A program made the position numbers and the translations under genes. DNA of 64,000 nt, taken from contig OZ025249.1 of assembly GCA_964019135.1 (NCBI GenBank), positions 16,207,088-16,271,087 on the forward strand, in the 5' to 3' direction. The notes under the pieces are model-generated. The model searched no databases. It was not told the DNA's origin and saw only the letters and a list, made by a program, of their open reading frames with translations. Position 1 is the stretch's first letter. The number at the start of each line of letters is the position of its first letter. Below are positions 23,736 through 64,000 of this stretch, piece by piece. Source of the stretch: Arenicola marina (lineage: Eukaryota; Annelida; Polychaeta; Arenicolidae).

Positions 23736-23738
<3 letters not shown>

Positions 23739-23773
<35 letters not shown>

Positions 23774-23988
23774 GAAAATCGTTTATTTCGAATCCAAACA
23801 GTTGTGGGTACATAGCAGCCATACATCTGACATATAAAACATTAGTTCGCAGCAAGTATATATTTAGGTATAATCTGACAATGTTGTCAAGATACTAATT
23901 TACTAAATTGTCGCTAAGTGCTCTTGCATTCTATATAATGTCTCTCTCGATTCTGTACTAAGTATATTCTTATATATTAATGATCGAT
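23739..23988 (-). mobile_element. Retroposed insertion with poly(A) tail and 13-bp target duplication
   Basis: Flanked by the direct repeat AGCCAGCCATTAT at 23726-23738 and 23989-24001. On the minus strand it ends in an A34 tail (23739-23772) preceded about 10 nt earlier by AATAAA (complement at 23782-23787). These are hallmarks of target-primed reverse transcription. The 5' part stays open and ends in a stop near 23905, so it could be the 3' end of a 5'-truncated LINE or a processed host mRNA; I cannot tell which. The tail is uninterrupted and the duplication exact, so it is probably young. Confidence 0.88.
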
Positions 23989-24296
23989 AGCCAGCCATTA
24001 TGATAGCAGTCGCATGAAGCACTGTGCATGCCTCCAAGCACTGTGATGACGGACTTGAAGTACTAGGACTGATGGAACAGTGATTCATGGTCGAATTCGG
24101 ATGATATTTTGGGCAGTAGCAAAGCAAAAATACCCGTTCACGTACAGTTTCACCATTGTTGTCATTCCTCGTCTGACAAAGGTTGAGTATGTATTGTTTA
24201 TACTCTTGTTCACCTGATTTCTCGTAGCTTCGTATTTGGTATACTCGTTTACGAAATTCCTGAGGAATTTTCGGATCATATTTTGTCGCGAGAAGA

Positions 24297-27644: not shown

Positions 27645-28190
27645 CCTACAGATGTACGGCGCCAGTTGTGTATGTGCAGCCATCTAAATAAAGAGGGACA
27701 AATGTACGCAATCCTCTGTGTATAGACGGACAGATGTACGCCGCCATCTGTGTATCGAGGGACAGATTATGCCGCCATCTGTGTATAAGAACAGATGTAC
27801 GCCGACATCTGTGTATAGAGGGACAGATGTACACCGCCATCTGTGTATCGAGGGAGAGATTACGCCGCCATCTGTGTATAAGAACAGATGTACGCCGCCA
27901 TCTGTGTATAGAGGGACAGATGTACACCGCCATCTGTGTATCGAGGGACAGATTACGCCGCCATCTGTTTATAAGAACAGATGTACGCCGCCATCTGTGT
28001 AAAGAGGGACAGATGTACGCCAATCTATGTATAGAGGGACGGATGCACACCGCCATCTGTGTATAGAGGGACAGTTGTGCACCGCCATCTGTGTATAGAG
28101 GGACAGATTACACCGCCATCTGTGTATAGAGGGACAGATGTACACCGCCATCTGTGTATCGAGAGATAGATTACGCAGCCATCGCTGTGA
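27645..28190. repeat. ~31-bp minisatellite with 93-bp higher-order repeat
   Basis: About 17 monomers of 30-33 bp built around CAGATGTACGCCGCCATCTG, itself an inverted pair (CAGATG...CATCTG), joined by linkers GTGTATAGAGGGA, GTGTATCGAGGGA or GTGTATAAGAA. In the middle, three successive monomers form a 93-bp higher-order unit: the AGAACAGATG junction recurs at 27788, 27881 and 27974. Frames through it on either strand (repeats such as HLCIEGQ) are artefacts of the stop-free unit. Confidence 0.93.
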
Positions 28191-30679: not shown

Positions 30680-30879
30680 NNNNNNNNNNNNNNNNNNNNN
30701 NNNNNNNNNNNNNNNNNNNNNNNNNNNNNNNNNNNNNNNNNNNNNNNNNNNNNNNNNNNNNNNNNNNNNNNNNNNNNNNNNNNNNNNNNNNNNNNNNNNN
30801 NNNNNNNNNNNNNNNNNNNNNNNNNNNNNNNNNNNNNNNNNNNNNNNNNNNNNNNNNNNNNNNNNNNNNNNNNNNNNNN
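30680..30879. other. Assembly gap of 200 N
   Basis: Exactly 200 undetermined bases, typical of a scaffolding placeholder, so the true distance is unknown. It separates MITE copy 2 from an 83-bp tandem repeat. Confidence 1.
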
Positions 30880-30974: not shown

Positions 30975-31200
30975 TCTGGCATACATATACCCTCTGGCCC
31001 GCCAAGGTGACCCTGGTTATTATCTGTACACTGCTATTTGGGTGTCCTCCAACATTCTCTGGCATACATACACCTTCTGGCCCGCCAAGATGGCCCTAGT
31101 TATTATCTTACACTGCTATATGTGTTTCTTCCAACATCCTCTGGCGTACATATACCTTCTGGCCCGCCAAGATGACCCTGGTTATTATCTGTACACTGGA
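30975..31200. repeat. 83-bp tandem repeat, 2.7 copies
   Basis: CATACATATAC/CATACATACAC/CGTACATATAC starts at 30980, 31063 and 31145. Each is followed by CTTCTGGCCCGCCAAGATG, then a shared TGACCCTGGTTATTATCTG-like part. The copies differ by a few substitutions. It lies just past the assembly gap, so a longer array may have been collapsed. Confidence 0.88.
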
Positions 31201-31915: not shown

Positions 31916-34900
31916 CGCCGCCCGGTCCGCCCATCTCCCAGGCAATGTTTTTGCGCCACTGTGAATATCACAGCCATTACATGGCTCGAGGATCAATGCA
32001 TCCGAGGATCAACTTACGCACTTTAACTTAACTCCGCGTCTGGTGGGACTGACTTTTTTTTGTTAACACTGTCTGAATATTTTCATCTTGCAAAGAATGG
32101 AGTTCCGATTGGGTCGTCACTTCGCTCGGCTCACAAGTCAAAGTACAAAATACTATGAACGGTCTTTCCGGAACCATAATCCCCCGACGGTCATAGGTTA
32201 TTCCCTGATTGACGTGTTCAGCCAATTATGGGCTGCCTCTCCTCGGGCCATGCCGCAGGATGGAGGCCCCCGGAAGATATGGGTGGGTGAGAGGGTGGGT
32301 GTGAGGGAGAGATCGGGCGGGGCGGGGCGGGGACATACGATAGGGTCCCATATCCCAAACCCCCAGGTGGTAATAGTCACTATGCTTCATCTGCAGCAAA
32401 TCCTTTCGTCAGGCACATGTAGAGGCACATATAGCAATTCGATTTTGTATTTTGCTGTTTCCTCTTGATTAATGCTAATGGAGTGTGAATTTTTGCAGGC
32501 CTGCGTGACACAAGATATGGCAAGATAGTCGGAGTTGTAATGGCTTTTCTATAGCATTCTGTGACGTCGTTTATAATGCGCCAGTGGTCGATAAGTAGAA
32601 GATTCGGTCTCTGAAAGGGGAAGTAACTGCATTGAAATAAACATATGTGTTTCTACTAATATCAACATTGAAGAAATGCGTCTCACGTACATACCGTTTA
32701 TCATACGACGCATTTTGTATGGCAGGGAAGGTAATTTCTCAAGTTAGTGAGGCGTTGTGACAAATGTAGCATGTTGTCATTGCGAGAAAATGGACGTACG
32801 TTTCTGAACACATAAGAAGCAGACGTTGTCTCATGGTCGAATTCTGCGTAGAAGCCTCCTAGCCCAGGGTGCAATGATTATTAACGGGCATCGACCGGCG
32901 ATTGTCGGCAGTGCTTTGTTTTCGGTACTTAGTCATCCCATGGTCTATGCTTTTTGGCTGAACATCGCGCAGTTGACGATATTCTCAACGTGTTCTTGTT
33001 GACATTATCAACAAGATGAAACGGGAAAATGGTAAATAGTGGAAAAAAGGGGTAAATAAAATAAAAAGGCTGTAGAACACTCGTGGGGCTTAAATAAAAA
33101 TACAGTTCTCAAATCGATGACCGCGCTTAATACCAAGAGCAAACACTTTGGGAACGCACGGCGGTCACGTTCTGCCAACATTGGCCCTATATATGTACTT
33201 GGATGACATTACATCATTTCCACATAGACAATTGCTGGCAGGATGTGTAGCATTTATGTCTTCACGCTCTCCTGGCCACCCCCACTGTCAGGCGGGGGTA
33301 TTTATCTTCTTATGGCCCGGCCCTGGAGAAGTTGATGGGTGTAACGGTGTAGGCGGGTGGGGGAGGGGTGGGGTGAGGGTGAGGGGGCGCTGCGTGTGGG
33401 ATGTGTGTGGGGGTGGAGGAGGGAAGGTGTGGGTGGCAGGTGGGGGGGGGGGGGTAGTCGGACATCTTCATGGGATAGCACATTTGTCACTAATCTATGT
33501 TTCCTCAACTTCGAGACCAAACAAGTAAATAAAGCAGGAGCGGTGCCCATAAAATTAGGCTCACGTGAGATTCTGCTTCTCTCGTTGTCACAACACAATG
33601 TCACGCTCCAAATACCGCTCCAATTTTATGTGATTCCTCGCTTATGGTGTACATGACCTATGAAGGGGAATCAACATCAGCTAGAGGTGTGGGGACTTTG
33701 GTGAATGAAGTAAATTATATTTGGGATCGTTTTTATTTCATAGCCAAGTCAACAGGTATATGTTAATCCAGTATATTAAATCGAATAGTAAACATATTGC
33801 ATAATATATATGTAATTAAGCACATATAACGGGGAATACATGGATACCTGTATCAGCGGACTAGTGAGGTTGGATTGGAGGAGAGAGGGTTAATTGAGTT
33901 TCGAAGAAATGAGCGTCAAGCAGGATACACTAATCCATATCACTCTGGCATTTACTGCTGTTTGACTTTCCAATATATATATATATTTATATATATAGAT
34001 TCATATCGAAATATAATAATGCCACAATATATAAAAACATAATACGATATATGCTTCCGAAATTGTTTGCAAGCAATTGTCATGATATTGAGCTATTGCG
34101 CTGCATGGTGTTCCATTTGTTTTTACATCAAGCAGAACAAAAACACTGACCGGTACCTATCTCCGTTCGCATCTGTTGAGCGCTCAGATGTAACATATCA
34201 ACCCAAGGTACATGAAATATGCAGGCGGTGAGTGGCTTATCCGCCAAAGAGATCAGGGATCAGGCCCATCAAACAATGGGAAGTAATGTGGGAAAAACGT
34301 AAAACAACTTATATTATTAATATTGTACGCTCCGGCCGATTGTCACAATGTTACTCTTTGGTCGATGCTGAAGACTGTAATGTAATGTTATCGGCGTAGC
34401 GCTGCGGACAAGAACAAACATCAAATGTGTTCCGGGGCTTTGAGTATTTGTTTCTCATCTGCGGATCACGCTTGAAGATTGACTCCATTGGTGTCCGTGG
34501 ACTTCGAAAATGTCCGTGGCAACCACGGTCTTTTTGAAGACTACGACCACAACGGCGCGTTTTTCATGGCGACCCAGATGGCAACGACGGCACCACGAAA
34601 AAGACGCTTTGGGAGAGAGCAAAAAAAAATGGCAGCTCCAGAAAGTTACCCAACTTAGAGGCCCCGATCATTACAGTCGGGCCCGGCCATCGCCCACACC
34701 GCGCCGCCGTCGCCAAGAGTGAGTGGACACATTGAGGGCTGCGTGGTTACATCACTGCCGGGGTGAGGGGTGAGAGTGACAAGGGTGGGGGTGGAGTTGA
34801 TATGTTGGAGGGCGTTGAGACGAGGAGAGTGGTTGGGGGGTGGGGGGGGGGGGGCGGGGGGCGGAGGGGGGATGAGCGGGGCGGGTTGCTGTAGATGTGA

Positions 34901-36787
34901 ACGGAAAGGGAAAGAAGAAGACATCTAGTGCCGCCATTTTATTGTTTTATTTTGTTAGAGTCCCTTGCAGTTCTGATGGCGATGGGACGATGGGACGAGA
35001 GGCTAATCCAACTGCTCACTCCCCATCCAACGGGCCGACTGCGCTGCCCTCTCACCCCCACCGCCCCCCCTCCCCGCCTACTCATACGCTGCACGAGCGG
35101 CGTGGGTTCCTTCAATATTACAGCTCGCTCCTCCTACTCCTACTCTCCTTTATTCTCGATCTCCTTCCTTTTCCTCCTGTATTTGCGGGTTCGATGTTGT
35201 GCTCACGCCAACCAGAGAAGCGCTTTTGTGGTCTCTCCTCCTTCCCGCCGTCAAGTTTTTGTGTTTCCTGTGATGTCGCCCTCTGCGTGTCAGCTCCAAC
35301 GTCTGTCACCACCAACTTTTTGTCGTACCCAAACAATACTGACATCGGCCGCCATGTTTCTTGTCTCGCACAATGTCTAATGTTTGATAGATATGTGGCT
35401 GTAGTAGTGGTCATTGTGTGTTTGGCCATTGCAGCTGTTACTGAGCCGCTGTAAAGGGTCATTCTCTTAAGCAGAATTCATCAGGTCATTTATGGGTTAT
35501 AAGATAAAAATGTGATAAAGGTACGAAACATACTCATACCATAAATCTCACTTACTCCCACAATCCGCGGCGGTCTGTAGATCATATTATTGCCTCGTAC
35601 ATAAATTAGGTTAGAGACAAAGGCCGTTTATGATTAATGATTTATCGGTTCCCATTTACATTCGCATTACAAGGTGGAAGTTTAAAATAGCGCACTTGTT
35701 ATTGAAAGATACATTGCGCCGGTAAGGGCTTCGTCACACCCGGAAACTTTCAGTTTCACGTCTGCTTTAGGTCTATTTATAGCCATAGCCGTGCGCCCAA
35801 TTTCAAGCATCAATGTCTAAGTGCATTATCATTAAATAAGTTGCTTGTGCAAATAATTTATTGCGGCATGAGATGATCACGGAACGTGCTGTCTTTGCGT
35901 TAGTACATCGCGCCAATCCGAATTTTTCGACAAGTAACAAATAATAAACACTCTTTTACAGCCTGGTTACCTTGACCGTGTAGTTGGCACCCTTGTTAAT
36001 CCTAGCCTGCCTTAAGGTTAATGCCATCATCGTTAATGTACGATCATGGAATGATTTTCCCGTGCCTCAGTTTTCTCTATTTAAGTTTAGCCGGACAGTA
36101 GTTGTCCGCTATCTCCAAACCCAGTCGCAACCTACTTGCACCAAAGGCTATCGGCTTAGCCTGCAAAGATGCAAAGAACACGTTTGAACTAGGCAATTAT
36201 TAGTGATCCGCCGTCATTTCCAGCCGCTTTATGGCATAAACCCCGTAATGTGCTTGATGGCGAACCACAACCCACACGGAGAAGATATTTATTCTTTATT
36301 GGCTTAGCATGAAATGGCGTTCGCCTGGCATCATCACGTTATTGTCTCAATCCCGTCCAACGAGATTACGGCCGATCTCGGCACACGCTCACGCGGCACG
36401 TACTGACTGTCTCCACGTAGGCGGGGACCAGCATCCACGACACAGCCCGGGAACCGCTGTGTAAAGAAGAAACCCCACGACTTTTTTTATAACTTAGCCA
36501 CCTTCCGCTTGGCGGGGCGGGCCTTGATTCCATCGGCCCGGGTTCCATTTGTCTGTTATACGAGTTTCAACGAGAATAGCGTTTGGGTGGTCTTTAGACA
36601 AGCTCGCTCGAAAAGGAGTCAATATTGCCGTGGGATGAATGCATGGATACGGGGGGCAAGACATGACCTTCAAAAGCCATCCGCGAAAAGCTTAAAATGA
36701 TGTAAAGAAAAAAGTAGCCCAGTATTCCAAAAGTTCATCGTACTTGAAAGCAACGTTGAGAGGCCAAGAAACCATCACCAAAACGTC
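31916..36787. other. Intergenic, no gene recognised
   Basis: Mostly unique sequence. Contains a G13 run at 33442-33454 within a G-rich stretch (33350-33455), TA-rich repeats around 33970-34000, a G-rich block at 34830-34880 and ordinary A/T-rich sequence. The 185-codon frame at 34897-35454 has no recognisable domain. Confidence 0.55.
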
Positions 36788-37130
36788 GTGGAACCATCGC
36801 CATGACAGTACAATTCCATCGCCATGACAGTATAATTAGATCGCCATGACAGTATAATTCCATCGCCATGACAGTACAATTCCATCGCCATGACAGTACA
36901 ATTCCATCGCCATGACAGTACAGTTCCATCGCCATGACAGTAAAATTCCATCGCCATGACAGTACAATTCCATCGCCATCACTGTGACAGTATAATTCCA
37001 TCGCCATCACTGTGACAGTATAATTCCATCGCCATGACAGTACAATTCCATCGCCATGACCGTACAATTCCATCGCCATGACAGTACAATTCCATCGCCA
37101 TGACAATACAATTCCATCGCCATGAGGCAT
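36788..37130. repeat. 22-bp minisatellite
   Basis: About 15 copies of a 22-bp unit with core CCATCGCCATGACAGTAC followed by AATT or a variant. Two copies carry a 6-bp expansion (CATCACTGTGACAG). The minus-strand frame with repeated MALELYCHGDG-type peptides arises because the unit lacks stops. Confidence 0.94.
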
Positions 37131-40100
37131 AAAGAGCGATCGCAAGAGGCCACGAAATAATTGGTAAGAGACCAAGAGACCAAGAAACAAATCACCAAAA
37201 AGTTAAGCAACGCAAACTTCATCTCCAAATGACCCTGACGTAATCGATTATAGGGAGGAAAAAATAAAGGCCAAGGTGAATGGAAAAAAAACTTTCTATA
37301 AAAGACAAGGAAATCACCCAAAACCACAAAGAAAAGGCAAAGAAACCATCGATTAAAGGTAAAGACACTATCGATAAAAAGTCAAGAGACCATCGACAAA
37401 AGGTCAAGAAACCATCGATAAAATGTGACGAAACCAGTGATGAGCTTCCAACTGCAAGACGCCATGGCCAAGAGGCCACGGAATGGCTTAGTATCGATAT
37501 GGGTGTTTTAGTGTCGGCTGCACGAGGCGCAGGTCCTCGAGGTGCTGAAAGCTCGACGTGATGAAAGAGGAATTTGGGCCCAGAATTATCTGATAGAGTA
37601 GGTGGACTTACGCCACACGTAAGACTTCCCGCAATGGATCACGTGGCAAAAAGGAATGGGGTTTTCGGTGCGATATCCCATTTCGGTCCAGATAATGTAC
37701 ATTGGTAAAGGGTACGTCATATCAACTGTTATGGCGAAACAAGAACTAGGTCAGGCCAGTCGTCAGAGACCATATGACAAGAAATACTTTCGGAAACTCC
37801 TCTTGAAATATCAAATTTAGGAATTCCTTTGTATGACGCTGTTTGAGCGTTGTATACATGTACACATGTATTATTATAATAAAGATCAAACCGAACGTTT
37901 TGCTGAACAATGGCTCCCGTTGTTTCAAGAATTTCTTTTTTGAATCGATAGAAATAGAATTCAGAAAAAAAACTCAATGGGGAAACACTTCGCTTTGCTC
38001 TAGTCTTTGACGTCACTCCGAGGAAAGCAAACGGGACATTCTCGTTGCTCTTCACATTTTTGTTTCTTTGAGTTTACTGGTAGTACATGTGCCTGTAACG
38101 GCCACTTCCACGGCACTTACGACTTGGGAGCCGGGAAAATCTCGCCGAACTATTACAAAAACAGGAGCTTGTAAACCATTGTTTAACTGGATTGCTTACC
38201 TGGTATTGACAACGTACACACATATATCATCCCAATACCATTGCAATGCTGGTATGTCCAGCATAAGTGTGTCTTTTAACAATTGTGCTCTGCTCCCATT
38301 GCTCAGTAAGGATTTTTCTACAGCAACTGCTTACCACGTAAAACATATTTAGAAAAGAAGTTTGAAGGATTGTGAAGATATTTTTGGTAAAAAAGAAAAA
38401 AGGTCTTGCAAGAGCTGTTTTAAGCTTATACGTCATCGCATTGAACAGATATTGCTCGTTTTGCTGCAGCGGGAATTGTCCAAACTATACAAGATGTAAG
38501 CCAGACACACCAAATAAGGATCGGTGGGTCCGTGTTTTAGTAGTGCCAGTTGCCACATTGACATATGCACCACTCTGCGGTTACTTTGAACACATTTTTA
38601 CGCCTACAAGAATGCTTAATGCTTTGAAGTAGGTAGATGCATACCTGTAGCGGGTACTACATGGACATGAGTAGCTTATGTATTACTCTTTACATCAATC
38701 ACTTCAACGAAGCCCTTTGTGCCACAATTTGAAAAAAAGTATAAAAAAAAGTACAATCTTGCGCGTGAAGAAGGTGGCCTCCAGTGGCGCCCTCCAGTGG
38801 CTACATGGACCGCTGACCGGGCCCCGGGGTGACCATTAACACCCGCCGTCGGTGTTTGTCAAGGGACTGATCCCTCTGACACTGGGGTACAGCGACCGAG
38901 ACGGAAGCCACGGCTCCACACTAAATCCCGTCTCAAACTCAATTATGCATGAGCGTCGCCCGCAATTCATCAGTGGTCAGGCTGAGACCTGTCGATTGAG
39001 GGCCTCAGGGAGGGGGAGCTTGGGGCTTGGGGCCAGAGTGGGGGGTGAGGGGCGGGAATGATCGGGAGGACGGAGGATGGGGAGGGGCTGTAAGGGCCGG
39101 GGGAGGGGCCGGAGGACGGAGGAGGGGAGGGGCCGGAGGACGCAGGATGGGGGAAGGGCTGGAAGGACGCAGAGGGGACGGAAAGGGGAGGCGGGGTGAA
39201 TGGAGGATGAAGGGGGCGGGTCCCGAGGAGAGTGGGGGTGGGGGATGGCAAACACCCATGGGTGAACGGAGGGGGCGTGAACTTGTCGGGGGTTGGTTTG
39301 GTTGGGGGTCCGGGCCAGGGGCCTCAGGAGACAACCTGGGTAGGGTAAATATGGCACCGGGGGAGGGTGCGGGGAGGGGTTGGACGGTTGGAGGCGTGGA
39401 AACCCGGAGCGAACGTACGGGAGAGGGGGGGGGGGGTGGCATCTGCTGTTGTGCCCGGAGACGCTTAAGGGTAGAAAGGGGTAAGAAGGATTTTGACCAG
39501 CCCAGGGTGGGGTGCAGGACACCCCCTCTCCCCCCCTCCCGCCCCCCACCGCCCGCCCTCCTGTCGATATGATGGCGGTAACAGCTGCGGCCCCTGATCA
39601 TCCATCTATCGGACCTAAGCACCGCCCACCCGCCTACCAAGCCCCCCTCCACCACCACTCGTCTCCTACACCCCTCCCCCCCCACCTCACCCTACCCCTC
39701 TCGACCACCGTTATGAAACCGGTAGTTGATAGAGACCCCGACCCAAACCGGCGACCTCACACCCCGCCACGCCCTCTGCCCTTCCCCACCCCATAAGCCC
39801 ACCCCTACCCCGCCTTACTTCCTCCATTGTGCCGCATGAGCGTCATCTGTGACCACCCGACCTAATCCCCTCATGTTATATTGCTCAACTTTCAATTAAC
39901 ATCCATTGAATCTCAACCCTCTCACCCCCCTCACCCCCTCACCCCCTCACCCCCTCACCCCCTACTTACCCCTCACCCCATCACCCCTTCCCCTCTTCCT
40001 TTGTCCACTGAAGTCCCTCATAATAGTACACTCACCCAGTAGCTAATTTCTTTATCCTGAATCACAAACCATATCTCTGTCATGGAACTACCCCCCCCCC

Positions 40101-41317
40101 CCCCCGGACACTCTCAAACACCTCCAATCATTCTGTCTCGTTCTTTCGCCATCCCTCGGCCAGTTGCCCCCCACCCCGATGGGATGTCATAAATTCATGC
40201 ATGCAGGACTGACTGGACCCCAAAGGACAAGAAGAACCCTGGATTGTTCTCTTTCTACCAGCTTTTCCGGATTATCTCAGCGACCCGTGTGTCTCTCTGC
40301 GGGTGATCCATCACGCCGGCTGTCCTGGATCACAGGAGCAGATCGCCGGACGCACAGTGTATGTTTATCCGGATCAGCCCAGCGGCCGCCGAGGTTGTGT
40401 GCGCTGACGAGGTCATCAAGGGATGGCGCGGTTTGATTGTTTGTCTTTTGCGTACAAAGGTGGCTCAAACCACCAATTTATTCACTCATGTACCTGTCCG
40501 GTGTCGTTGATGCCTGGAGTGGAAAGGCGAGCATGTGATTGTTTGGTTTAAAGCTTTTCAAACAGTTGTTTCCTGGCAAACGATCTCAGGATCCAGATTT
40601 GTTACACATTATGGCCTGATTAACACAGAAATTGTTATGTTCTTATCAGTTCATTATATCTGAAATTCATTTTGCCTGGAACCCGCTCTAACATGGTGTG
40701 ATAAACCGGTGAACTACACAAATAGGCGACATAGGGCACGTTTCTATTATACAAATCTGGTGGGGTGGGGGGGGGGAGGGGAGGGGGAGGGGTTCCGCGG
40801 GGGCCTTCATGCCTGAGAGAGCGGATATGTTTTCTTGTGATGAAAAAGATACCTCTATAGAGAGGATATCTTAAAAATTGCGACCGGGGGTAGGGGGGGG
40901 GGGGGCTCTGAACATGTGCGTTCATAGAGCGGGTTGCCGGGAAAAAAAAGCCCTTCCGAGCGGATTTTGTCGGTATAACGCCCCGACCGAGCGACAATTC
41001 AGCAATTTATTGAGGGTAGTAGTTCGTAGTTCGAACTAAACGGTAAGCTGTCATGCTAAAAAGACCTTTTCTGGACGATATTACCACGGCAATTTCAAGC
41101 AAATGCTACAATCGTTACAATCGTAAAAATGGCGACCTATCACATCAGTCTCATATGCAGATTTGGGCGAAAAATATCTGTTTAGCCAGTCGTAATTAGG
41201 ACTAACCTCTGTAGGTCATATCGCGACAATGGGAAGTCCAGATATAGTGTATGTATATTGGAGTACCCGCTCACTCTCCGCGACGAAAGGATCTTAAGTG
41301 GAGCATGGTTCTCGCAG
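37131..41317. other. Intergenic with G/C-rich stretches, no gene recognised
   Basis: 37140-37450 is purine-rich with loosely repeated AAGAAACCATCGATAAA motifs. 39000-39450 is G-rich. 39500-39800 is C-rich. 39915-39985 is a short CCCCTCAC 8-bp repeat, and a C15 tract lies at 40091-40105. G-rich sequence occurs at 40760-40790 and 40890-40910. Several overlapping frames at 39.0-39.7 kb are compositional. Confidence 0.6.
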
Positions 41318-41425
41318 ATTGGTACAGGTGGGGCTCGAACCGTGCACCGGCCGCGTTGGCTGACATAGCAAAGCACCCTCGACAATAGGTAACGCGCTCC
41401 CAACTGGGCCATCGAGTGTTCCCAC
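41318..41425 (-). repeat. tRNA-like SINE fragment
   Basis: On the minus strand an A box (TGGCCCAGTTGGGAGCG, complement at 41395-41411) precedes a B box (CACGGTTCGAGCCCC, complement at 41331-41345). The A-to-B distance is longer than in a simple tRNA, so a tRNA-derived repeat or an intron-bearing tRNA relic is more likely. A second B-box-like GGTTCGAACCC occurs on the plus strand at about 41568, so two tRNA-like pieces lie head to head. Confidence 0.45.
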
Positions 41426-41699
41426 GCACGGCTGAAGCTGGGGCCGGACTACGGAAGAAAAGAAAATTGCCAATGGTTGAAGGGTTGATTGGATAATCGT
41501 GTGTTGGCGTGGGTAGCGGGCAGGCCGTCTGGGGTGAGGTCTCGTGTCGGCGGTCGGAGGTTCGAACCCAGGGGACACGGAACCTCTCAACCCTTGATGG
41601 TCTCTATTGGTGATATATCACCCGGTGAACCAGGCATTGCGTTATGTATTGTATGGGGCACAACTTTTGGAGGACAAAAAGACCCAATGGATTCTCATT

Positions 41700-42470
41700 T
41701 GTTATGACCGCCTCACTGACACTCACCAGCTGTATGACCGCCTCACCCAGCCACAGCAGCTATATGACCGCCTCAGCCAGTCTCACCAGCTATGTGACCA
41801 GTCTCACCCAGTCTCACCAGCTATATGACCGCCTCACCCAGTATCACCAGCTATGTGACCGCCTCACCCAGTCTCACCAGCTATATGACCGCCTCACCCA
41901 GTCTCACCAGCTATATGGCCGCCTCACCCTGTCTCACCAGCTATATGACCGCCTCACCCAGTCTCACCAGCTATGTGACCGCCTCACCCAGTCTCACCAG
42001 CTGTATGACCGCCTCACCCAGTCTCACCAGCTATATGACCGCCTCACCCAGTCTCACCAGCTATATGACCGCCTCAGCCAGTCTCACCAGCTATATGACC
42101 GCCTCCCCCAGTCTCACCAGCTATATGACCGCCTCACCCAGCCTCACCAGCTATATGACCGCCTCACCCAGTCTCACCAGCTATGTGACCGCCTCACCCA
42201 GTCTCATCAGCTATATGACCGCCTCAAACAGTCTCACCAGCTATATGACCGCCTCACCCAGTCTCACCAGCTATTTGACCGCCTCACCCAGTCTCACCAG
42301 CTATTTGACCGCCTCACCCAGTCTCACCAGATATTTGACCGCCTCATCCAGTCTCACCAGCTATTTGACCGCCTCACCCAGTCTCACCAGCTATTTGACC
42401 GCCTCACCCAGTCTCACCAGCTATTTGACCGCCTCACCCAGTCTCACCAGCTATATGGCCGTCTCACCGG
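41700..42470. repeat. 30-bp minisatellite
   Basis: About 25 copies of a 30-bp unit built from CTATATGACCGCCTC then ACCCAGTCTCACCAG. From about 41820 the period is exactly 30 with substitutions only. Upstream, one copy has an extra base and shifts frame. Two forward frames stay open (a decapeptide LYDRLTQSHQ and a second, MTASPSLTSY), the other is closed, and the frame switches inside the array. This argues for a non-coding minisatellite rather than a repeat protein. Confidence 0.94.
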
Positions 42471-43194
42471 TTTGAATATTTACCGAAACAAATTGATCTT
42501 GTCGTCTGTCGTTTAGGGACATGTCGGTCTAGGAACCTCTCCGCTCTTGGAATACCCCCCCCCACCCGACCCCCGCCATCACATCACAACCACTCTGATC
42601 CATCTACCCCGACGTGACTCTGAGACTCTCCGCAATTGGTCCTATCACCCCCTTCCTGCGTGCCTTTCTCATAATTCCATATCTCAGGCAACCTTCAATC
42701 GCGGCCCCGAAACCCTGCCCCAAAACCCTGCCCTTCCCCACCCCCCTCCCCCCAACCTCCACCCTGCCGCTGCCGACCTCATCCCCCTCCCCCTCCCCCT
42801 TCGCCAATCTCTGGTCTGGCCCTTCCTCGTCACCACCCCTCTCCATCCCCCACCCGCCGTCGCCGACCGTCCGTGCCCTCCAAGCCGCCAACCCCTCGTC
42901 TGGTTCCTTCCGCCTCGGCATCCCCGTCCCCCGTCCATTACCCCCCCCCCCCGCCCCCCTCCGCTGCAGCCACCTGTGGGGACGAGATGAAGGTCCCGTA
43001 TGACCGTCATCCCTGCCACGAATTCTGATTGATATCTCTCTCAATATTTCCGTCGGGTGAAAGAAAAAAAAATTAGGTGTACAGGAGGGGGGAGGGGTGT
43101 TTCCAAGAAAGCCGCTAGGCGTGCGATGTCCAAGAGACTTGAGGGTACTCGGGGGAGTCCACACTTAATGATTATCTACTCCACCCGGTCTCCG
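42471..43194. other. C-rich intergenic sequence
   Basis: C-rich low complexity from about 42555 to 42965 with poly-C near 42940, then a poly-A and G-rich stretch near 43060. Overlapping frames on both strands are Pro- or Gly-rich artefacts. Confidence 0.65.
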
Positions 43195-43380
43195 GCCCCT
43201 CCTGTCAGCCCCGTCCCCACTCCATTCCACCCTCGCGCCCCTCCTTTCAGCCCCGTCCCCACCCCATCCCCCCATCGCGTCCCTCCTCTCAGCCCCGTCC
43301 CCACCCCATTCCACCCTCGCGCCCCTCCTATCAGCCCCGTTCCCACCCCATCCCCCCATCGCGCCCCTCTTCTCAATCCT
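43195..43380. repeat. 42-bp tandem repeat with 84-bp dimer structure
   Basis: CAGCCCCGTC starts at 43206, 43248, 43290 and 43332, giving a 42-bp unit. Alternate copies end in ATTCCACCCTCGCG or ATCCCCCCATCGCG, so the real repeat unit is an 84-bp dimer present about twice. Confidence 0.88.
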
Positions 43381-46300
43381 GGAATGGGCCCACCTTAGAG
43401 GACATCTGAGCTTCCAGCCGCTTTCAGGCACTGGTCATTCAATGTGTCAGAGGTCTAGATTTGTAAACCCCGTACCTTCATTGGCCTTGAACTGTGGCAT
43501 GCACGGTCTTATACGCGAACTTATTAAAGCAATAACGTGTAGGTCATAACAGTTAGATTCCCTGACATACTTTGGGACATCGAATGTGAAAGCGGGGATT
43601 TGCCTTGTGTGGATTGCAACACAACATTTGGTAATCTCTTCTTACTTGACATGTTATAGACCTTAAGAATTGGTTTTTTTTATCTAGATTAGGACTGGGG
43701 AATTCACAGACGTTGCAGACCCCGAACCAATCTGGCGTCTGAAGGGTGAGAGTTGGGGGGGCTGGGTGCATCTGTACCGTGAATAACACTTCATCGCGAC
43801 AGCCGAGACGAGTTTGATTTCCAAGAGCTGCTTTGCCACATTTTAGTCCGTGTACACAAAAGTGGCTTAGACCCCCACCCACACATGACCCTATGAGCCG
43901 TGTCCCATTCTGCCTCTTCGCCCTACCAAATAGGCCACCAGCTGGGGGAGCAATTCCCCAACGATTAATCAAAAAAGTAAAATAAAAAGCTTAAACCCAC
44001 TTAGCAGACAACAGGCATTCTGCAACAAGCATACATAAGAACGCCAACCCTCGTTATCTCGCAATAGCCACGGCACTTAGCGATAAACGACTTCGTTTTT
44101 TCTCCCTCTCCCACCCATCGTCCTGAGGAGTTGGCCAAATGGTCAATAATGACGCCATTTTAGGTGTAGTACGGCTGGGCCACGGTCCCAGCGGCGGTGG
44201 CGGCGGCCACCAGGGGATCGTGATTTGTCTAATTGTTTTTTTCAGCGGATATCCGTGGCTGCTGAATAGGACTAGAACCTGCACGGTATGGCGCCCTCCC
44301 CTCGTGGCTATCGGCCATTAGACCGCCGATAAGGCTCGACTCCGGGAGGGCTAACTGCCATAACCGCCATCCAATTGAATGAGTTACGACGCTGTGCCGA
44401 CCACTTTAGCATACAGATAGCGTCGAAATAACAATCTCCACGCCGGAAGTGCAGGCCCGGAAGTTCAGGCGCCGTATACGCATCGCCGGAGTATCTGGAA
44501 TAATCTCACGCCGTAATAGCGCTCCAAAAAGTCAAGCCAGCCGCAAGGGGTGATAACAGGTGGCGTCCTCTATTGGCGGGAGAGTGTCACGCGGTGGTTG
44601 CCTGAGCCGCGGCGAGACAACAGTGGCGAGAGGCAACTCTTCACAACTTTAGCTCCTGACGTATGTGAGTCTACCAGTGGTGGACCCAGGAAGGGGGAGG
44701 GGGCACAGAGGGGAAATGTTTCTCACCGCATTCGCCGTAAAATAAATGGTGCCCCCCCCTTTCCTAAATTTCTGGATCGGCCCCCCCACGTCCCTCTGTG
44801 TCCTTTGCTACCTCCTCTATTACCACCCACTACCAACTGTAGCTGTATCACACCCCCCCTCTCCCCACCAGGCCATCGGTCTTTAACCCCCGATGATATC
44901 CCACCCCTCCACCCCATCCCTCCTCCCACCCCACCCCACGGCTCTCCCCACCCAGCCGTCTCTCCAGCAGTTAGGTCGTTCGGGCGCGATTTATCCTCCG
45001 TTGATAAGACACTGTGATTTGGAGCCAGCTGCAGATCCAATATTCCACATCCCAGGAGACGGTTACCGCCTAGTAAGCGCGCGCGACTCGTGACAGGTCG
45101 TGCCCCCCGGGCGTCGCGTGGAAACCGAAGCCACACCATTTTGTTTCTTGACGTCATCAGGGGATGGAACCAGTCTATAAGTGTCGCGGGCGCCGTGTCT
45201 TGAGTGGCCATGGGCTGGTGGTGACGGTGGTGACAGTGGTGACGGTGGCCAGGTCTCCACCAGACATGTTTGTGCCAAGGAAACGATACTGTAACAATGA
45301 CAAAGGAAACGACGTAGTAGCTTACATATAACACCATGATACAAAATAATTCTGGTTCGGCATTACAAGATCTGAAAAAAATGAAAAAATGCACGAGAAG
45401 ATGCATGTAGTCCTGAGCGAGTGATTATAGTTATAGCAGATTATAACAATTATAATTAGACTATCATCAGACACCGAACAATTTCATCATGCGTTTAGCA
45501 TTGATATACACTATTTTAATACATAAATTGTATATAAAGACCAAAGAATTCACTGAAATCACACGCATCTGCGGATAAAAAAATACGTTTAGTGACACAT
45601 CTATATTCGATGTAAATTGGTGGTATATGGACCTGATCGTAAATAACAGTCGGTTTCACAGAAGCGACATTTTTAGGTGTACATTATGAATATAGCGAGA
45701 GTTTGCGCTGGTGTCGTTTATTATATTGCGTTAAAGATCAAAGTTTTGCGATGGACGCGGTGTTAACTCGGTGCCAACATCCCTCATCGCCTTCCCAAGC
45801 AAATGGCGTAATTTACAACTCAAAACCAATCACCAGGAACCCCTAACGACAGGTTAACCTCAATGTACAGGGACATCGCACTGGACATCATACCACTATC
45901 ACCAACTCCTCCCTGCCCACACAATTATTCTCTTCCACCCCATCCTCCATCCACCCCTTCCCTTCCACCACCGCCACCCCCCCTCCCCCCCTCCCTCCAC
46001 GCTCCCCCAGCCCTTCATCCTGTAGCCTCAAGGCTGACCACTCCACGTTGAAGGGCGTGTGACCCCGCTTGACCCGTAATAACCCATAATAAACGAGCAG
46101 CTCGCATCACGAGAAATTAATCTTGAGACATGTTAATAAAGGGATAAGTGTGCCAAAGGGAGACCCATCATTCTTCAAGAGACCCTAGTGCAAGGTGCAT
46201 TCCCCCATCGGCTGCCAGGCAACTCCCGATGACTGTTCCACGAGGGGAAGGAAGGGTGAGGTGGGGGGGTGGGGGGGGGGATCCCATCTGGATATTGGAG

Positions 46301-49300
46301 TACCAGCTGTCGCATCTGTTGGCCATTGGCTTCGGAAGATTGATCCCAATCCATGCACACTTGGCGTGTTTTCGGCCCTGCCATATGGACATTTTTATTG
46401 GTAATGCCTATTGCGGGTCCATAATCTAAACTCTCACCCTCCTCTCCAAAAATAACATTACATTGAGAAAGGCGGGGGGTGGCCGCGGGGGTAGCCGCAG
46501 GGGGGGGGGTTGCCGCGGGGGGTGACTGCGGGGGTGGCCGCGGGGGGGGGGGGGGTGGCCGCGGGGGTGGGTGGAGTTGCGTTCCATATAAAAACCATTG
46601 TTCGTATTGGCCATACCAGGAATAAACTGTTTAAACATGGCGAGAGGTATTGCGGGAGCGATTACACAACGAAGGATCATGCCATATCCCTGCCATATGA
46701 TCACACGTACCCCTGAGAGATAAGAAGCGCCAACTAAGACAGCAAGCACCAGACTCACATCTCTAGAACTAAGGTGTATATATATATATAACCCAAAACA
46801 AAGTCCCATCTTAAAAATCATCTATGATGAATAATCGTTTATTTTACAAGAACACAATGAAAACACACACAGTCTCGATGTATTTTGGCATATTATGGCG
46901 AAAGTTAGAAAAAGAGTATATATTTACTCTGACCTTGTCGCTGACATCGCGAGGGGGAGTCACATATCGAAAGATTAAAACAATGTCAAACACCAACACG
47001 AGAACCCAGCATTATGATACTTTATTTACACATCTCATATATTTATTGATCTTTCTTAAATGACAAATCACAACGAACCCTTTCCTCCATGGTGAAGTCG
47101 TATTCCGCGTCTAGTGTGCTATCTATTGTAACACAGAAGGGGATAAAACGCTAGAGGGGATGGGGAGGGTGGGCGGGGCTTAAATACCAGGATCCAAGTC
47201 ATGGATCCACACTCTGTCTGGTATTTAACAGGACAGCGGTCCCTGCACCCCAATTACTGTTGTTGTAGGGTCCTTGTCAGCCGCTCTGATTCTGTCAATG
47301 CTGACTGTTTGCCGTGATAATCTTAATCGGCGGTGGCATTCGATGTGGTAATTAAATTCAATATTTATCATCGTCGGAATCGTATTTCCCATAATGCCCA
47401 CAGTGCGTTTAAAAGTCCTCAGCGGTTATTTTCTCCTTGGCGGAGCCACCGATCCAGACAAACTAATCTCACAGGCAATCAGCCTAAAGCACACAATACC
47501 CAGCATCATAGGGTTAATGGCACAATTTGCCCGCCAGCTCGCAATTGAAATAATTTATTCGTATTCCGCCTTCAATTGTGCCATATATGAACTGTATTGG
47601 TCACCCTCTGTGGTTCTCATTTCCTGTCCAGACGTACTGCGGACTCCAGTCTATAACTGCATATACCTCTCTTAGGCGGATATCCCATTGCCACCACCGT
47701 CTGAAGACCCACAGAAAGGTCATCTTTGCCGCCAAACCCATTCCCCCACACCCCAGCCACCCCTACCCCACCCGTCCATACCTGGGTGGGTGCGACCATA
47801 AGGCAGGCCATAGCCCGTGATCCACTCACCCACTGTCCTTGGTCTTTCGCCTTCCATTAACACTGCGGGGTTCGTGTTTCTGCCACCAGCAAGGACTGGC
47901 GCGGTTCTTGTCTTTATCAAACTCGATTAATGGCTTATCTGGTCCGTCAGCAGTCATACCATACATACTGTCTCTGTCATTGTTGCATCCAGGTCATTAT
48001 TAAGCTATTTCAGTAAAATAGAGAAGATTCAAATCGATTTCTCTGCAGCAGAAAACTTACATATTATCTTTTCTCTTTAAATGTAAAACGTTTACTAATA
48101 AGCTTTGCTAATCGAGCCTTACTATCAGAACTCCTTTATTCCTACATTTTTCTCATTTATACGCATTATTTTTTAATGCAATGCATGCCAATGCAGCTGC
48201 AGCATGGCATCCGTATATCAAAAACAACACCGAGGGACTCGAACCCCCGACCGTGAGCAAGTTTGACATTGTGATATGTATTCCCAACGTCATCATTCAC
48301 TATCCGTTACCACCATTCGTTCATGCCATGTCCGAACTGTCGTAGGAGGCGGATACGAGAGAGGCATTTCAGTTCCTTAACGAGCTGCAATCCTCCAATG
48401 AGGCGGTTACAGTTTAATTAGCGAGATTTGTATTTTAGGGGGAGGCATTTAAGTTACTTTGTGGGTGACTAGTTCGTCACCTCGTTAAATACAAAACGCG
48501 CCCGTGAGGTGGAGCTACCCGGTTTTTTTACGATTTTACGCGCCATTTTACGCGCCATTGGCAGCTAACCCAGTGAGCCATGCACGGCCTCCGGGCAGAT
48601 AGAGACACCCCTATACCGCCCGTCAATGGCCATCTGCAGCCTAACTGCTCTAGTCGAGATTGACGACACCACCTTGGAAGCAATAAAGCACCGTTGCGAT
48701 GCCATTCCAACATGTTTTGCCAATACAGTTGATTGGCTGGTGTGGGTGCGGGTTGGGGGTGGCGCGGGGGTAGAGGACGTGGTGGCTGGCCGGGGTGGGG
48801 AGCCATCGTTGTCAGTATGCTTCGGACAACGGCTGGGCGCCTTCTTGTAAGGGATGAGGGGCAGTGGTGGTGGGGGCTTTAGTCGGGTCGATCGGTGCAA
48901 GTGTCTTTTACTGCCTCGTCTTCATTTAAATCTGTCTCTGAGATTTGCTAGCAAAGTACCTGTTTCAGGAGAATGTATGCATATACTTGCATGTACCTTT
49001 CAAACTGACCGTCCGCAGTTGCATGGTAAGAGTCCAAACATGACGAATGAAAAATACACATATATAGATATACGGTACAATATAACCATCTGTTGCATTA
49101 CTACAGTACGGATGTCTTCTCAGCCTACTGGTGTTCACCCTAACCATTGACGTAAACTAGATTTATGAAGTATGTCATCAGAACAGATTTACCGATCAGG
49201 GGTAGAAGGTGAGGGAGCGGGAGGGGTGGCGGCTGTGCAGGAGAGTGTGCACCTTTGCACGGTCTGAAGTATTATGCCCCCCCCCCACCTTCTCCAATAA

Positions 49301-49430
49301 GCCACACCTCAACTCAACATGTGCGATATTGGCTGCCCTAGATGGAGGCACTTCACATTAATTGTGATTGGGTTAAGCGCATTCGACGCTAGTTTTGTGT
49401 AACCCGTCCTGTTCCTTCTTTCTTTAACAG
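43381..49430. other. Intergenic or 5' intronic sequence with minor repeats
   Basis: tRNA-like boxes occur on the minus strand at 44262-44335 (GGTTCTAGTCC B box) and at 48234-48248 (GGGGGTTCGAGTCCC). 44673-44787 has weak inverted ends around CCAGTGGTGGACCCAGG and CTGGATCGGCC, a possible MITE. 46468-46580 is an irregular GGCCGCGGGGGT repeat with a G14 run. The upstream receptor exons (signal peptide and first beta strands) must lie here or further left; I could not find them. Confidence 0.5.
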
Positions 49431-49475
49431 AACGTCCGGAGCCAGATTCTGACGGCAACCGGACTGCTCATACTG
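49431..49475 (+). CDS. Nicotinic acetylcholine receptor subunit, 45-bp exon (loop D region)
   Basis: Encodes NVRSQILTATGLLIL in phase 0, flanked by a pyrimidine-rich acceptor ending TTTAACAG and the donor GTGAGT. A 45-bp exon at this point is a classic feature of nicotinic receptor genes; vertebrate counterparts read like KNQVLTTNIWLQM. It encodes the strand carrying binding loop D. The loop D tryptophan of alpha-7 (W in NIWLQ) is replaced by Leu here by my alignment. The protein is a subunit of a pentameric plasma-membrane ligand-gated channel. The preceding exon, expected to end in a DVDEK-like motif, was not found. Confidence 0.9.
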
Positions 49476-49926: not shown

Positions 49927-50033
49927 GCGTGGAAAGATGAGCGGTTGACGTGGAGACCAGAAGACTACAATCTCAATGAGATAGTAGTGGAGGCCAGCCA
50001 TCTGTGGGTGCCAGAGTTTGCCGTCATCAACGG
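49927..50033 (+). CDS. Nicotinic acetylcholine receptor subunit, exon with loop A
   Basis: 107 bp encoding AWKDERLTWRPEDYNL, then NEIVVEASHLWVPEFAVING, entering in phase 0 and leaving after two bases of the Gly codon. The LWVPE motif corresponds to the WxPD motif before loop A. The conserved loop A tyrosine (alpha-7 LLYNS) is Ile here (AVING). The exon ends CAACGG followed by GTGAGT. Its last 56 bp are the seed of the tandem array that follows, and exon and array are almost identical, so short-read or transcript mapping here would be ambiguous. Joining to 57854 restores Gly-Ala-Glu-Glu in frame. Confidence 0.95.
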
Positions 50034-50901
50034 GTGAGTGAGATTGTAGTGGAGGCCAGCCATCTGTGGGTGCCAGAGTTCGCCGTCATCAACGGGTGAG
50101 TGAGATTGTAGTGGAGGCCAGCCATCTGTGGGTGCCAGAGTTCGCCGTCATCAACGGGTCAGTGAGATTGTAGTGGAGGCCAGCCATCTGTGGGTGCCAG
50201 AGTTCGCCGTCATCAACGGGTGAGTGAGATTGTAGTGGAGGCCAGCCATCTGTGGGTGCCAGAGTTCGCCGTCATCAACGGGTCAGTGAGATTGTAGTGG
50301 AGGCCAGCCATCTGTGGGTGCCAGAGTTTGCCGTCATCAACGGGTGAGTGAGATAGTAGTGAAGGCCAGCCATCTGTGGGTGCCAGAGTTCGCCGTCATC
50401 AACGGGTGAGTGAGATTGTAGTGGAGGCCAGCCATCTGTGGGTGCCAGAGTTCGCCGTCATCAACGGGTCAGTGAGATTGTAGTGGAGGCCAGCCATCTG
50501 TGGGTGCCAGAGTTCGCCGTCATCAACGGGTGAGTGAGATAGTAGTGGAGGCCAGCCATCTGTGGATGCCAGAGTTCGCCGTCATCAACGGGTGAGTGAG
50601 ATTGTAGTGGAGGCCAGCCATCTGAGGGTGCCATAGTTTGCCGTCATTAATGGGTGTGTGAGATTGTAGTGGAGGCCAGCCATCTGTGGGTGCCAGAGTT
50701 CGCCGTCATCAACGGGTCAGTGAGATTGTAGTGTAGGCCAGCCATCTGTGGGTGCCAGAGTTCGCCGTCATCAACGGGTGAGTGAGATTGTAGTGGAGGC
50801 CAGCCATCTGTGGGTGCCAGAGTTCGCCGTCATCAACGGGTGAGTGAGATTGTAGTGGAGGCCAGCCATCTGTGGGTGCCAGAGTTCGCCGTCATCAATG
50901 G
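50034..50901 (+). repeat. 62-bp minisatellite made of exon tail plus splice donor, 14 copies
   Basis: Begins at the first intron base. Each unit is six donor bases (GTGAGT or variant) followed by the 56-bp tail of the preceding exon. Units start at 50034 and every 62 bp to 50840, and a fifteenth donor at 50902 leads into unique intron. There is no indel in 868 bp. Four units (50158, 50282, 50468, 50716) have GTCAGT and one (50654) GTGTGT. A TGAG shared by the exon (AATGAGAT) and the donor (GTGAGTGAG) could have seeded the first duplication. I recall comparable exon-intron-boundary minisatellites, called mirages, from the amphioxus Adh locus. Confidence 0.98.
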
Positions 50902-53900
50902 GTGAGTGAGTCACTACACCACATAACACGCACCGACGGCTGGTATCAATGTACAATTATAGTAACTCCTCCCATGTACTTTCCAGGTCCATATTATCAG
51001 TCATATTTATTACTAACGATAATCTATGATTCTGAGTAACGTTATCACACCACCAAGAGCGTAAGCGAGAGACGCTTTGCCTTTTTTGTGCGACACAATT
51101 CAGAATACCCCCCATGGGCCCATAGTCATCATCCGGACATAGTCTCTGAAGCTCAGGGCGGAACGTAGTACAAATAATCCCAAAGTTATGTTTGCCTAAA
51201 TTGACATATATGTTCGCATGTATCTCACCCGGGTCACACCCTCCCTGGGCCGTTGTCTCTATGGTGTCACAGATATACTTCTTACCACATGTTGTTAATG
51301 GTATAATAGATATATTAAATTTCAAAAATCAAATCCTGCACTCCTAGATATAGGTATTCATGTCAGGTCAATACGGACACCCCCTGATTTCTCAGAATAG
51401 AAAGACCTCTTCATTGGGTTGTACGCGTTACGTATATAGGTAACGTCCACTGAAACCAATCATGAGCTTCGTTAGCGCCGCGTCAGACATCATGAATAAT
51501 AAGTAACCGACGGCTTTAGTCCCCGCGCTAACAATGCGCTGCAATGGGCTGTTAGCCAACGCCCCCTGTCGACAGGAGAGTGTGGCGCCACGGCTTTAGC
51601 TGTGCGCTGGGAGGAGATATGTCACCGGAAATAGCCGGCTGGGGGACGGCGTAGCGGGCCTAACGGCGCACTTACTGTCGTTTAGGACGCCTTGTTAACT
51701 TGCTACGAGTGACAAGCCGCCTGTTAGAAGGACTCGCCAGATAAAGGCGGAGATTTTAAGGATAAGTTGTGTTCCGGAGTGGATAAAACTTTCAGTGCTA
51801 TGTCCGGGAACGCTTTGCCCCTCCTTGCGGTTTACTGATCTACATAGATGTTATATGTGTGTCGATGTTGGGTGTTGGTGTGCGCTAAGTGAGCGGGATG
51901 GTGATAGACCTGGGGAACAGGCGTAGCGATAATAACCAGGGTAATAAGATCTCTGGGGAGATGTGGGTGGGGAGGGGGGGGGGGGTCATAGGTTACTATA
52001 GCGGCACGGGGTGGAGTGGCTCAAATAGGGAGATGAGGTGATACAAATGTAACTTATCACTCGGTTACTGAGGAGTATAGTGGTGAAAGTAGGGCCCAAT
52101 CATAGATGCAACATAAGACGTTAAAACGCTTGGTTGCTGAATTCGCCACTCCTAGTATGCTACATGATCGAAATCATTATCTATCATTGTGCTTTTTTGG
52201 GGGGTTTCGACCAGTTCCGTCAGTCCGTTCCTATCAAGCCTTAGCTGGCACGCAATTTAACGTTTTATTTCGGAGTGCCCTTTTGGGGAACAGACACCCA
52301 CCCACGCATGCATCACTCCCCACCATCAAACCTCAAATTACCTTCTCCGCTAACCTCACCGGAAACCTCTTGTTCCAGCGATTCACTTCTCCGCATTACA
52401 CTCGCCGCCCCTCTAAGCATGGTCTAAATGCCGAAAACATCGCCTTCGAGGACGTGGTCTCCCCCACCTGGGACCTGCCCCCCCCCCCACCACTCCCTCC
52501 CCCCATCGCGCGGAGCCCACCCGTCAACCAATCCATCGCATCTGACGTCCCCTATATGCTTGCCGGGGAACCATTGTTGTTGCCATGGCGACACATTGGA
52601 TGGTGGCGACTCACACAGATGGGTGGGACGGGTACCCCTGGAGCCTCATCCATCCTGAGCTGTCAGAGGCTTTCAGAGGCCATTTGACACCGAGAAACAA
52701 TCGTAATGACCGGTCGTCTATACATCGGTCCGTGTTCTCTCTCTCTCACACACAGCACAAACAAAAAAATCTGTCATTGACGGTTAGGCATTTATCTGGC
52801 GGGCGATTGTGCCGGTTTTTCCCCCCTATCCTTTGTCTGCCATTTGGTTACAATCCTGCATTCAATGAGCCGCTTTCCCCGTAGATCTTGCATTGTCCAG
52901 TAAAGGTCACAATGGTTATCTTCCTTGTAAGTAAAATGCGTTTCACGAGTTTCACGCGCAAAAGCCATTCGGCAGGTTTCGTTCCAACAGCGTACGGACA
53001 CTTCCTGTTGACTGGAATTGCGACCATGTCATAATTTACATCTTGTATATCCCTAAAAGCACATATAGGTACCATTATATCAATATATACATATATCAAT
53101 AGCTGGCGCCGTAGGACGCCCGCCGATTGTTATCGATTTGGAACCATTATTTGAATAAATATCATTTCACGTCACACATACTGGGCCTTAAACAAAATAT
53201 ATTTTGGCTTTCTCGGTTCGGAACAGTGGCTAGTCATGCCCGTGGACACAGACACTCTGGGGCAGGTCTATACATATATATGGAGGGGGGGGTGGGCAAA
53301 GGGTATTTCTGTTCTTCGTGATCTGGGAACCTGACCCCCCTTTGTCCCCCCCCCCCCATATATATACAGAGAGAGAAACAACGGCAGCGGAGAGGGGGAG
53401 ATAGCCAGAGAGAGAGAGAGAGGGCATTCACCCCGACAACCATTACCTTGAAATTCCAGAAGCATAGCATTCCTTGACTTGGTGATAATAATGACGCTGT
53501 AGGGGTGAAGCGAGCAGCTGGGGGCCTGTGGTTGGACAGGTGTCTTCCCGACCCCCCCCCCCCCCCCGCCCCCACCCACCTCACCCGCATCATGTCTTCC
53601 TGAAGCCTCTCCCGCCGTGTATAGAGCTATATTTATACGCCTCCACAACCCCCGCCCTGCAGCCCCCCCTCCTCCCCCCCCCCCCCCCCCGCCCGCTGCG
53701 TCTCCCGGGTTTCTGACCCTTTAGGCCAGGCGGGGCCACGATATTCCATTAGGCACTCTAAGCTTTGTCTGGATTGGGACTCCCTCGAGGTTAAGATGAT
53801 TTCAAAAAGTTAGTATCGGGTGTCATGCCTCGTGACGCACCGCTAATTCAATTGCTGCTGGCTATGCTTTATTCACATTTGGTGGATTTACAGCGGGGTA

Positions 53901-57853: not shown

Positions 57854-58386
57854 GGCGGAGGAGATCTACGGTGACTACCGCGAGTTTCGCGCCATAATCG
57901 CGGCAGACGGCGAAGTCCATTGGGAGCCAGGCGGCGTCTTCAAGACCATGTGTCAGATCGACATCACTTACTTCCCCTTCGACGACCAGAAATGCGCCTT
58001 GCTCTTCGGCGCCTGGTCCTATCACACGACCAAGATGAACCTGACCAACTCCTCCGCCGTCGTCAACCTCGACTCCTACGAGAAGAACGGCGAATGGCAA
58101 ATCGTAACGACCACCGTCATCCGAAACGAATTCTTCTACGAGTGTTGCCCCGGGGATAGGTTTTCCTTCGTGTCGTTCGAGATCCACATTCGGCGCCGGT
58201 ACACGTTCTACGTAATGAACGTGATCCTGCCCAGCATGGTCACGTCCATACTGCTGCTTTCCATATTCTACTGTCCACCGGGACAGAAGGTCCAGATAGG
58301 GGTTGTCGTCCTGCTCTCCTTCAGGATCTTCCTGCTCAACGTCACGGACAGCATCCCGAAGACATCAGACCACATTCCCCTTCTAG
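57854..58386 (+). CDS. Nicotinic acetylcholine receptor subunit, Cys-loop/TM1/TM2 exon
   Basis: 533 bp from acceptor TTTGCAG to donor GTACGT. It encodes AEEIYGDYREF, the 15-residue Cys-loop CQIDITYFPFDDQKC, loop B GAWSY with its Trp, overlapping N-glycosylation sites (NLTNSS), and loop C FFYECCPGD with the vicinal cysteines that define alpha-type subunits. TM1 (NVILPSMVTSILLLSIFY) and TM2 (GVVVLLSFRIFLLNV) follow. Unusual residues by my alignment to alpha-7 are Gln at -1' (normally Glu), Gln at 2', Val at 6', Arg at 12' and Asn at 17', while Lys 0', Leu 9' and an acidic 20' are kept. The second loop C tyrosine is also absent. Confidence 0.97.
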
Positions 58387-63829: not shown

Positions 63830-63833
63830 ATCC

Positions 63834-64000
63834 ACCCACAAACTGTTAACCACTAATGATTGTCCTTTTAATAATACACCCACAAACTGTTAACCACTAA
63901 TGATTGTCCTTTTAATAATACACCCACAAACTGTTAACCACTAATGATTGTCCTTTTAATAATACACCCACAAACTGTTAACCACTAATGATTGTCCTTT
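63834..64000. repeat. 44-bp tandem array running off the window end
   Basis: At least 3.8 nearly identical copies of a 44-bp unit containing ACAAACTGTTAACCACTAAT and GATTGTCCTTTTAATAATAC (AACTGTTAAC recurs at 63841 and 63885). The array is still in progress at 64000, so its length is unknown. Confidence 0.95.

Follow-up and report, generated by a model that had tools for sequence, protein, structure and literature searches.

Receptor gene and tandem array at the locus

The window (the whole stretch of DNA that was analysed, 64,000 nucleotides in length) carries on its plus strand a nicotinic acetylcholine receptor (nAChR) gene in which the end of a ligand-binding-domain exon, together with its splice donor, is repeated in tandem into the following intron (Table 1). 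The gene model is based on homology and on one open frame across four exons, which, once joined, read without interruption up to the stop codon and combine ligand-binding and transmembrane regions, with both receptor domains, PF02931 and PF02932, above their cut-offs. When 20 ORFs of the window were compared with Pfam, the three containing receptor exons passed the curated cut-off and the other 17 fell below it; the ORF holding the array exon matched Neur_chan_LBD with an E value of 6.8e-8. Translation of the first three exons gave an nAChR alpha-3 fusion chain as the best PDB match (E 1.3e-47). Given that this alignment contains no gap across the 50033/57854 junction and that the codon is restored over it (AAC GG/G GCG), the first donor of the array is judged to be the real donor. 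For exons further 5′, encoding the signal peptide and the beginning of the ligand-binding domain, a single crude regular-expression scan of the plus strand from 34000 to 49430 gave three hits, all unlike receptor exons; thus, the gene model is incomplete at its 5′ end. No second copy of the receptor exon regions was found elsewhere in the window (blastn, E 0.01), and no other TRF row overlaps the four receptor exons.

Two features of the protein and one of the intron may be mentioned here. The receptor encoded by 49927-50033 and 57854-58386 possesses the vicinal cysteine pair (YECC) and, in place of a tyrosine of the aligned alpha-3 chain, an isoleucine (AVINGA here versus VLYNNA). We take that tyrosine to belong to loop A of the agonist site, and the agonist site of this receptor may be atypical, given the isoleucine in its place. 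Judging from exon sizes, the array-bearing intron may correspond to one of the first three introns of nAChR genes. In vertebrates, the first three introns are described as common to all members of the nAChR family (PMC6354393).

Table 1. Receptor exons, donor, array and boundary words, with positions counted in the window.
Feature	Position	Strand	Evidence or remark
Receptor exon, 45 bp (NVRSQILTATGLLIL)	49431..49475	+	Acceptor ...TTTAACAG, donor GTGAGT; in frame with later exons
Ligand-binding-domain exon, 107 bp, last 56 bp forming unit 0	49927..50033	+	Matches to Pfam Neur_chan_LBD and the nAChR alpha-3 fusion chain
Tandem array	49977..50910	+	15 units of 62 bp, 14 of them intronic copies of the exon end with its donor
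Exon-side TGAG (microhomology) bounding the duplication	49977..49980	+	Left extension 1, right extension 3
True splice donor GTGAGT (CGG/GTGAGT)	50034..50039	+	Homology; codon restored with 57854
Intron-side TGAG (microhomology) closing the array	50907..50910	+	Same boundary comparison
Third exon of the model, encoding the Cys-loop, the vicinal cysteines and the first part of the transmembrane region	57854..58386	+	Pfam Neur_chan_LBD E 1.4e-26, Neur_chan_memb E 4.1e-8
Final exon of the model, with the rest of the transmembrane region and the stop codon	60760..61364	+	Pfam Neur_chan_memb E 2.8e-15; open frame; acceptor read

The array is reported by TRF with a period of 62, 15.1 copies, 95% matches, 0% indels, and a score of 1735. 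Phased from 49978, it resolves into 15 head-to-tail units without indels, the last ending at 50907; unit 0 is formed by the last 56 bp of the exon and the donor GTGAGT, and units 1-14 are intronic. This layout agrees with an earlier sequence-only reading, which had described the unit as GTGAGT plus the final 56 bp of a nicotinic receptor exon and had counted 14 extra copies without indels, and the Pfam and PDB matches, together with the donor words, support its view that an exon-donor boundary was duplicated in the ligand-binding exon of a receptor. That reading also let the array start at the first base of the intron, which is not strictly so: the phase is a convention, and the periodicity starts inside the exon, at 49977. 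The repeat is lost directly after unit 14, as 48 of the next 62 bases differ. Four of the 15 units are identical to the consensus, seven differ at one position, three at two, and unit 10 at six, giving a mean pairwise identity of 0.963 (0.974 without unit 10). At a lag of 62, 1000 mononucleotide shuffles gave identities of 0.267 on average and 0.328 at most; the array itself has 0.960, and across lags from 62 to 310 its identity stays between 0.959 and 0.968, with no clear multi-unit period. Within the window, the unit has matches at its 15 places only (blastn, E 0.01). The folding of two units as DNA, a possible cause of instability, is unremarkable (z -1.09).

The number of units is that of one haplotype in one assembly, and an assembly artefact could in principle have inflated a single copy or a shorter array, or collapsed a longer one. 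There is one 200-base run of N in the window (30680-30879), showing that it comes from a gapped assembly, and the copy number at amphioxus PGBD5 is reported to differ between two assemblies (PMC3902484). However, that sole N run is 19 kb from the array, several units carry private variants, and both tested flanks of the array are unique within the window, all of which makes an artefact highly improbable.

Copied donors and predicted splicing

The dinucleotide GT is present at the donor position of all 14 copies, most often within GTGAGT (9/14) and otherwise within GTCAGT (4/14; units 2, 4, 7, and 11) or GTGTGT (1/14; unit 10). The statement of the sequence-only reading that each copy has a donor-like site is therefore loose, as it holds for GT but only nine copies have the full GTGAGT. 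In a simple donor count over nine positions, the true donor scores 8, and eight of the 14 copies are identical to it at all nine; copy 14 retains GTGAGT with a different base at -3. Among 3731 GT sites on the plus strand, 21 score at least 8, and nine of these, the true donor and its eight identical copies, are located in the array. All ten plus-strand occurrences of the word GGGTGAGT in the window fall within the array. The 56 bases upstream of each of the nine identical donors differ from the consensus at no more than two positions. Variable columns make up 2/6 of the donor and 8/56 of the rest of the unit (Fisher P 0.25, a comparison of low power), and so the donor columns are not significantly more variable and, at this power, give no evidence of selection against decoy donors.

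In the gene model, splicing from each copied donor is predicted to bring a stop directly after ...PEFAVING (14/14), since the in-frame intron sequence is GGG TGA, and the first donor is the only one of 15 from which the model gives the full-length protein. On the acceptor side, 100 AG sites of the array were compared with the four real acceptors by a simple count of pyrimidines, as opposed to a trained splice model. The upstream pyrimidine share reaches 0.53 at best among the array sites, while the real acceptors have 0.65-0.82. Judged in this way, the copies supply no usable acceptor for intron gain and would serve as alternative donors at most, not as cassette exons. Given the stops that follow the copied donors and the lack of an acceptor equal to those of the gene itself, the array is unlikely to have given rise to a new exon or intron.

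These results bear on two functional readings. In the first, the unit would be spliced as an extra exon and the array would be a nascent exon or an intron being born, as proposed for amphioxus globins. The model has been published for mirages, the exon-intron-boundary repeats of amphioxus (PMC3087553), and human repeats at exon-intron boundaries are said to be a possible cause of novel introns (PMC2812944). In the present array, such an origin is extremely unlikely: besides the poor acceptors, the unit length is no multiple of three, reading into the units leads to a stop, and the intron appears to be older than the array because every unit already carries a donor.

In the second, the copies would form a regulated ladder of donors, so that some transcripts use a copied donor, gain the stop, and are destroyed, with the copy number tuning the output of the receptor. 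The eight copies that equal the true donor, their large share of the best-scoring GT sites, and the immediate stop that each of the 14 would bring are what such a ladder would look like, and the minisatellite CeRep25B is reported to be enriched near alternative splicing regions in Caenorhabditis elegans (PMC4039745). On the other hand, the donor columns bear no sign of constraint, folding of the exon and two units as RNA, by which donors could be masked, is ordinary (z 0.20), and amphioxus mirages are reported not to disturb splicing, although one of the two papers notes their potential as cryptic sites (PMC3087553, PMC3902484). A regulated ladder is thus very unlikely. A related form, in which the near-identical donors act as a copy-number-dependent brake and the length of the array, perhaps varying between individuals or cells, sets the receptor dose, hardly seems probable.

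The true donor and eight of the copied ones are alike at all nine donor positions, and the sequence upstream of each is close to the consensus, so that position must decide much of the choice among them. The array is an unusually clean case with many copies, and offers a ready natural test of how splicing picks among equal donors.

Origin of the array

The two ends of the array share the word TGAG, found once in the exon and once at the far end of the array. At least four bases of microhomology are expected at approximately 1.6% (0.016) of random breakpoints when base frequencies are equal; the word is short, its support for an origin at these sites is modest, and it should be regarded as supportive, not strong, evidence. 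When the flanks of the array are joined, the ancestral junction would read ...ATCAACGG/GTGAGTGAGTCACTACACC, with the second TGAG lying in GTGAGTGAG.

The reading that we favor, with a probability of roughly 0.85, is that the array is a mirage-type minisatellite that was duplicated between TGAG words and is tolerated, with the first donor in use. The first duplication would have involved a 62-bp stretch, from the exon interior to six bases into the intron, bounded by TGAG both in the exon and at the start of the intron, within GTGAGTGAG; slippage or end-joining at TGAG is its likely start. Unequal exchange or slippage would then have expanded the pair to 15 units, with every extra copy inside the intron, and the spliceosome would be expected to take the first donor, the 14 copies leaving with the intron. 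Most likely, the array is functionless, neutral, and tolerated. Because the donor supplies part of the TGAG repeat (GTGAGTGAG), such an origin might explain, in a way open to testing, how boundaries between exon and donor come to be duplicated.

The distribution of variants is in line with an expansion of this kind. An A at column 6 is common to units 0, 6, and 9, a T at column 42 to units 0, 5, and 10, and a C at donor position +3 to units 2, 4, 7, and 11; variants shared between such distant units are as expected from unequal exchange or conversion. Unit 0 differs from the consensus at two positions, and inspection of the frame shows both changes to be synonymous (ATA/ATT, TTT/TTC). Because both substitutions recur in intronic copies, gene conversion may have taken place between the exon and the array.

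Frequency of such arrays and background of the window

The duplication of an exon-intron boundary had been called rare in the sequence-only reading, a view that finds no support here: amphioxus precedents are in print, and the chance of a coincidence is not tiny. The 15 arrays used for the null estimate, which cover 9.2% of the window, were chosen manually among 65 overlapping TRF rows and include the array studied here; the choice excluded weak or short rows, for example 30975-31198 (2.7 copies) and 39065-39178 (4.8 copies), whose inclusion would raise the chance of a coincidence. With the seven splice junctions identified, the chance that at least one randomly placed founding unit spans a junction is 0.049, and it rises to between 0.095 and 0.26 if the window is assumed to hold 14 to 43 junctions. 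One junction-spanning array per window is mildly unusual, and a whole genome at this repeat density should, by extrapolation, hold many of them.

Twelve other arrays were inspected by eye with their flanks, one of them in full. The G+C-rich 38-bp array at 12519-13127 (16 copies, 96% matches, no indels) is comparable in uniformity to the 62-bp array. The unit of the 32-bp array at 27692-28183 contains, by eye, an inverted repeat (ACAGATG ... CATCTGT), and this array may be derived from a mobile element. A 30-bp array at 41703-42468 (TRF, 25.5 copies) has a period that is a multiple of three and lies in a frame, 41629-42513, that is open for 295 codons and has three Pfam matches below the cut-offs; it is possibly a coding repeat, or merely free of stops. 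At 63833-64000, a 44-bp array with 100% matches and 3.8 copies extends to the last base of the window, beyond which it probably continues. In addition, a cluster of ORFs with coding-like composition lies on the minus strand at 21534-24301, none of six ORFs compared with Pfam having a match above the curated cut-off and one having a sub-threshold match to DUF6431 (E 0.074). The window as a whole has a G+C content of 0.484 and a CpG observed/expected ratio of 0.82, with no Rfam match at gathering thresholds and no tRNA gene found by ARAGORN.

Comparison with mirages and other repeat systems

The Rogers model, in which introns are gained via duplication of AG/GT proto-splice sites (as cited in PMC3087553), likewise involves a splice site that is copied by tandem duplication in its neighborhood. 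Unlike in that model, the copies here have no acceptor matching those of the gene itself, and the intron seems to predate the array. Variable internal tandem repeats have been described in human genes within segmental duplications, where novel introns may result from those located at exon-intron boundaries (PMC2812944). The present array resembles them as a minisatellite expansion, which in the human genes lies partly at exon-intron boundaries; while the human repeats, in the account cited, change exons or may create introns, the copies here appear to lie wholly in a pre-existing intron (PMC2812944). Together with the over-representation of CeRep25B near alternative splicing regions of C. elegans (PMC4039745), the human repeats speak, by analogy, for a possible effect of such repeats on splicing.

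The closest parallel, as the sequence-only reading aptly pointed out, is with the mirages of amphioxus, and repeats across exon-intron boundaries have been published for Adh3, globins, PGBD5, and TnC. The name was coined at Adh3, where the unit measures 10-72 bp and somatic instability was noted; the globin genes BflGb6 and BflGb9 have tandem repeats across exon-intron boundaries, with 6 and 3 units of 81-100% identity in two haplotypes of BflGb6, and further mirage loci exist (PMC3087553). In the same account, Adh3 data and globin RT-PCR suggest that regular splicing is undisturbed, the copies are considered able to act as cryptic sites, and mirages are proposed as a source of introns (PMC3087553). 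Amphioxus PGBD5 has 60-bp repeats, the first abutting the 5′ splice site, in 2 or 7 copies depending on the assembly, as well as 108-bp repeats in 3 or 6 copies; the repeats are termed imperfect, TnC is cited as a further case, and splicing is again described as undisturbed (PMC3902484).

The array described here shares the hallmarks of these repeats. Its unit spans an exon-intron boundary set by homology, with 56 exon and 6 donor bases; splice signals are retained in many, but not all, copies; and its scale, 15 units of 62 bp, is that of a minisatellite, the unit size falling within the range given for Adh3 and close to the 60 bp of PGBD5. As in PGBD5, the first copy adjoins the real splice site. 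The host, in contrast to those of the amphioxus mirages, is a receptor gene, and the 14 extra copies compare with at most seven repeats in the descriptions of BflGb6 and PGBD5, their mean identity of 96% with the 81-100% given for BflGb6. A narrow search of the literature on nicotinic receptors in amphioxus, which is no proof of absence, met no report of this receptor locus. By analogy, the array most likely works like a mirage and is one. The phenomenon is already in print from amphioxus, and what is described here is another locus and no new principle; if the host is not a lancelet, it would extend mirages to another animal group.
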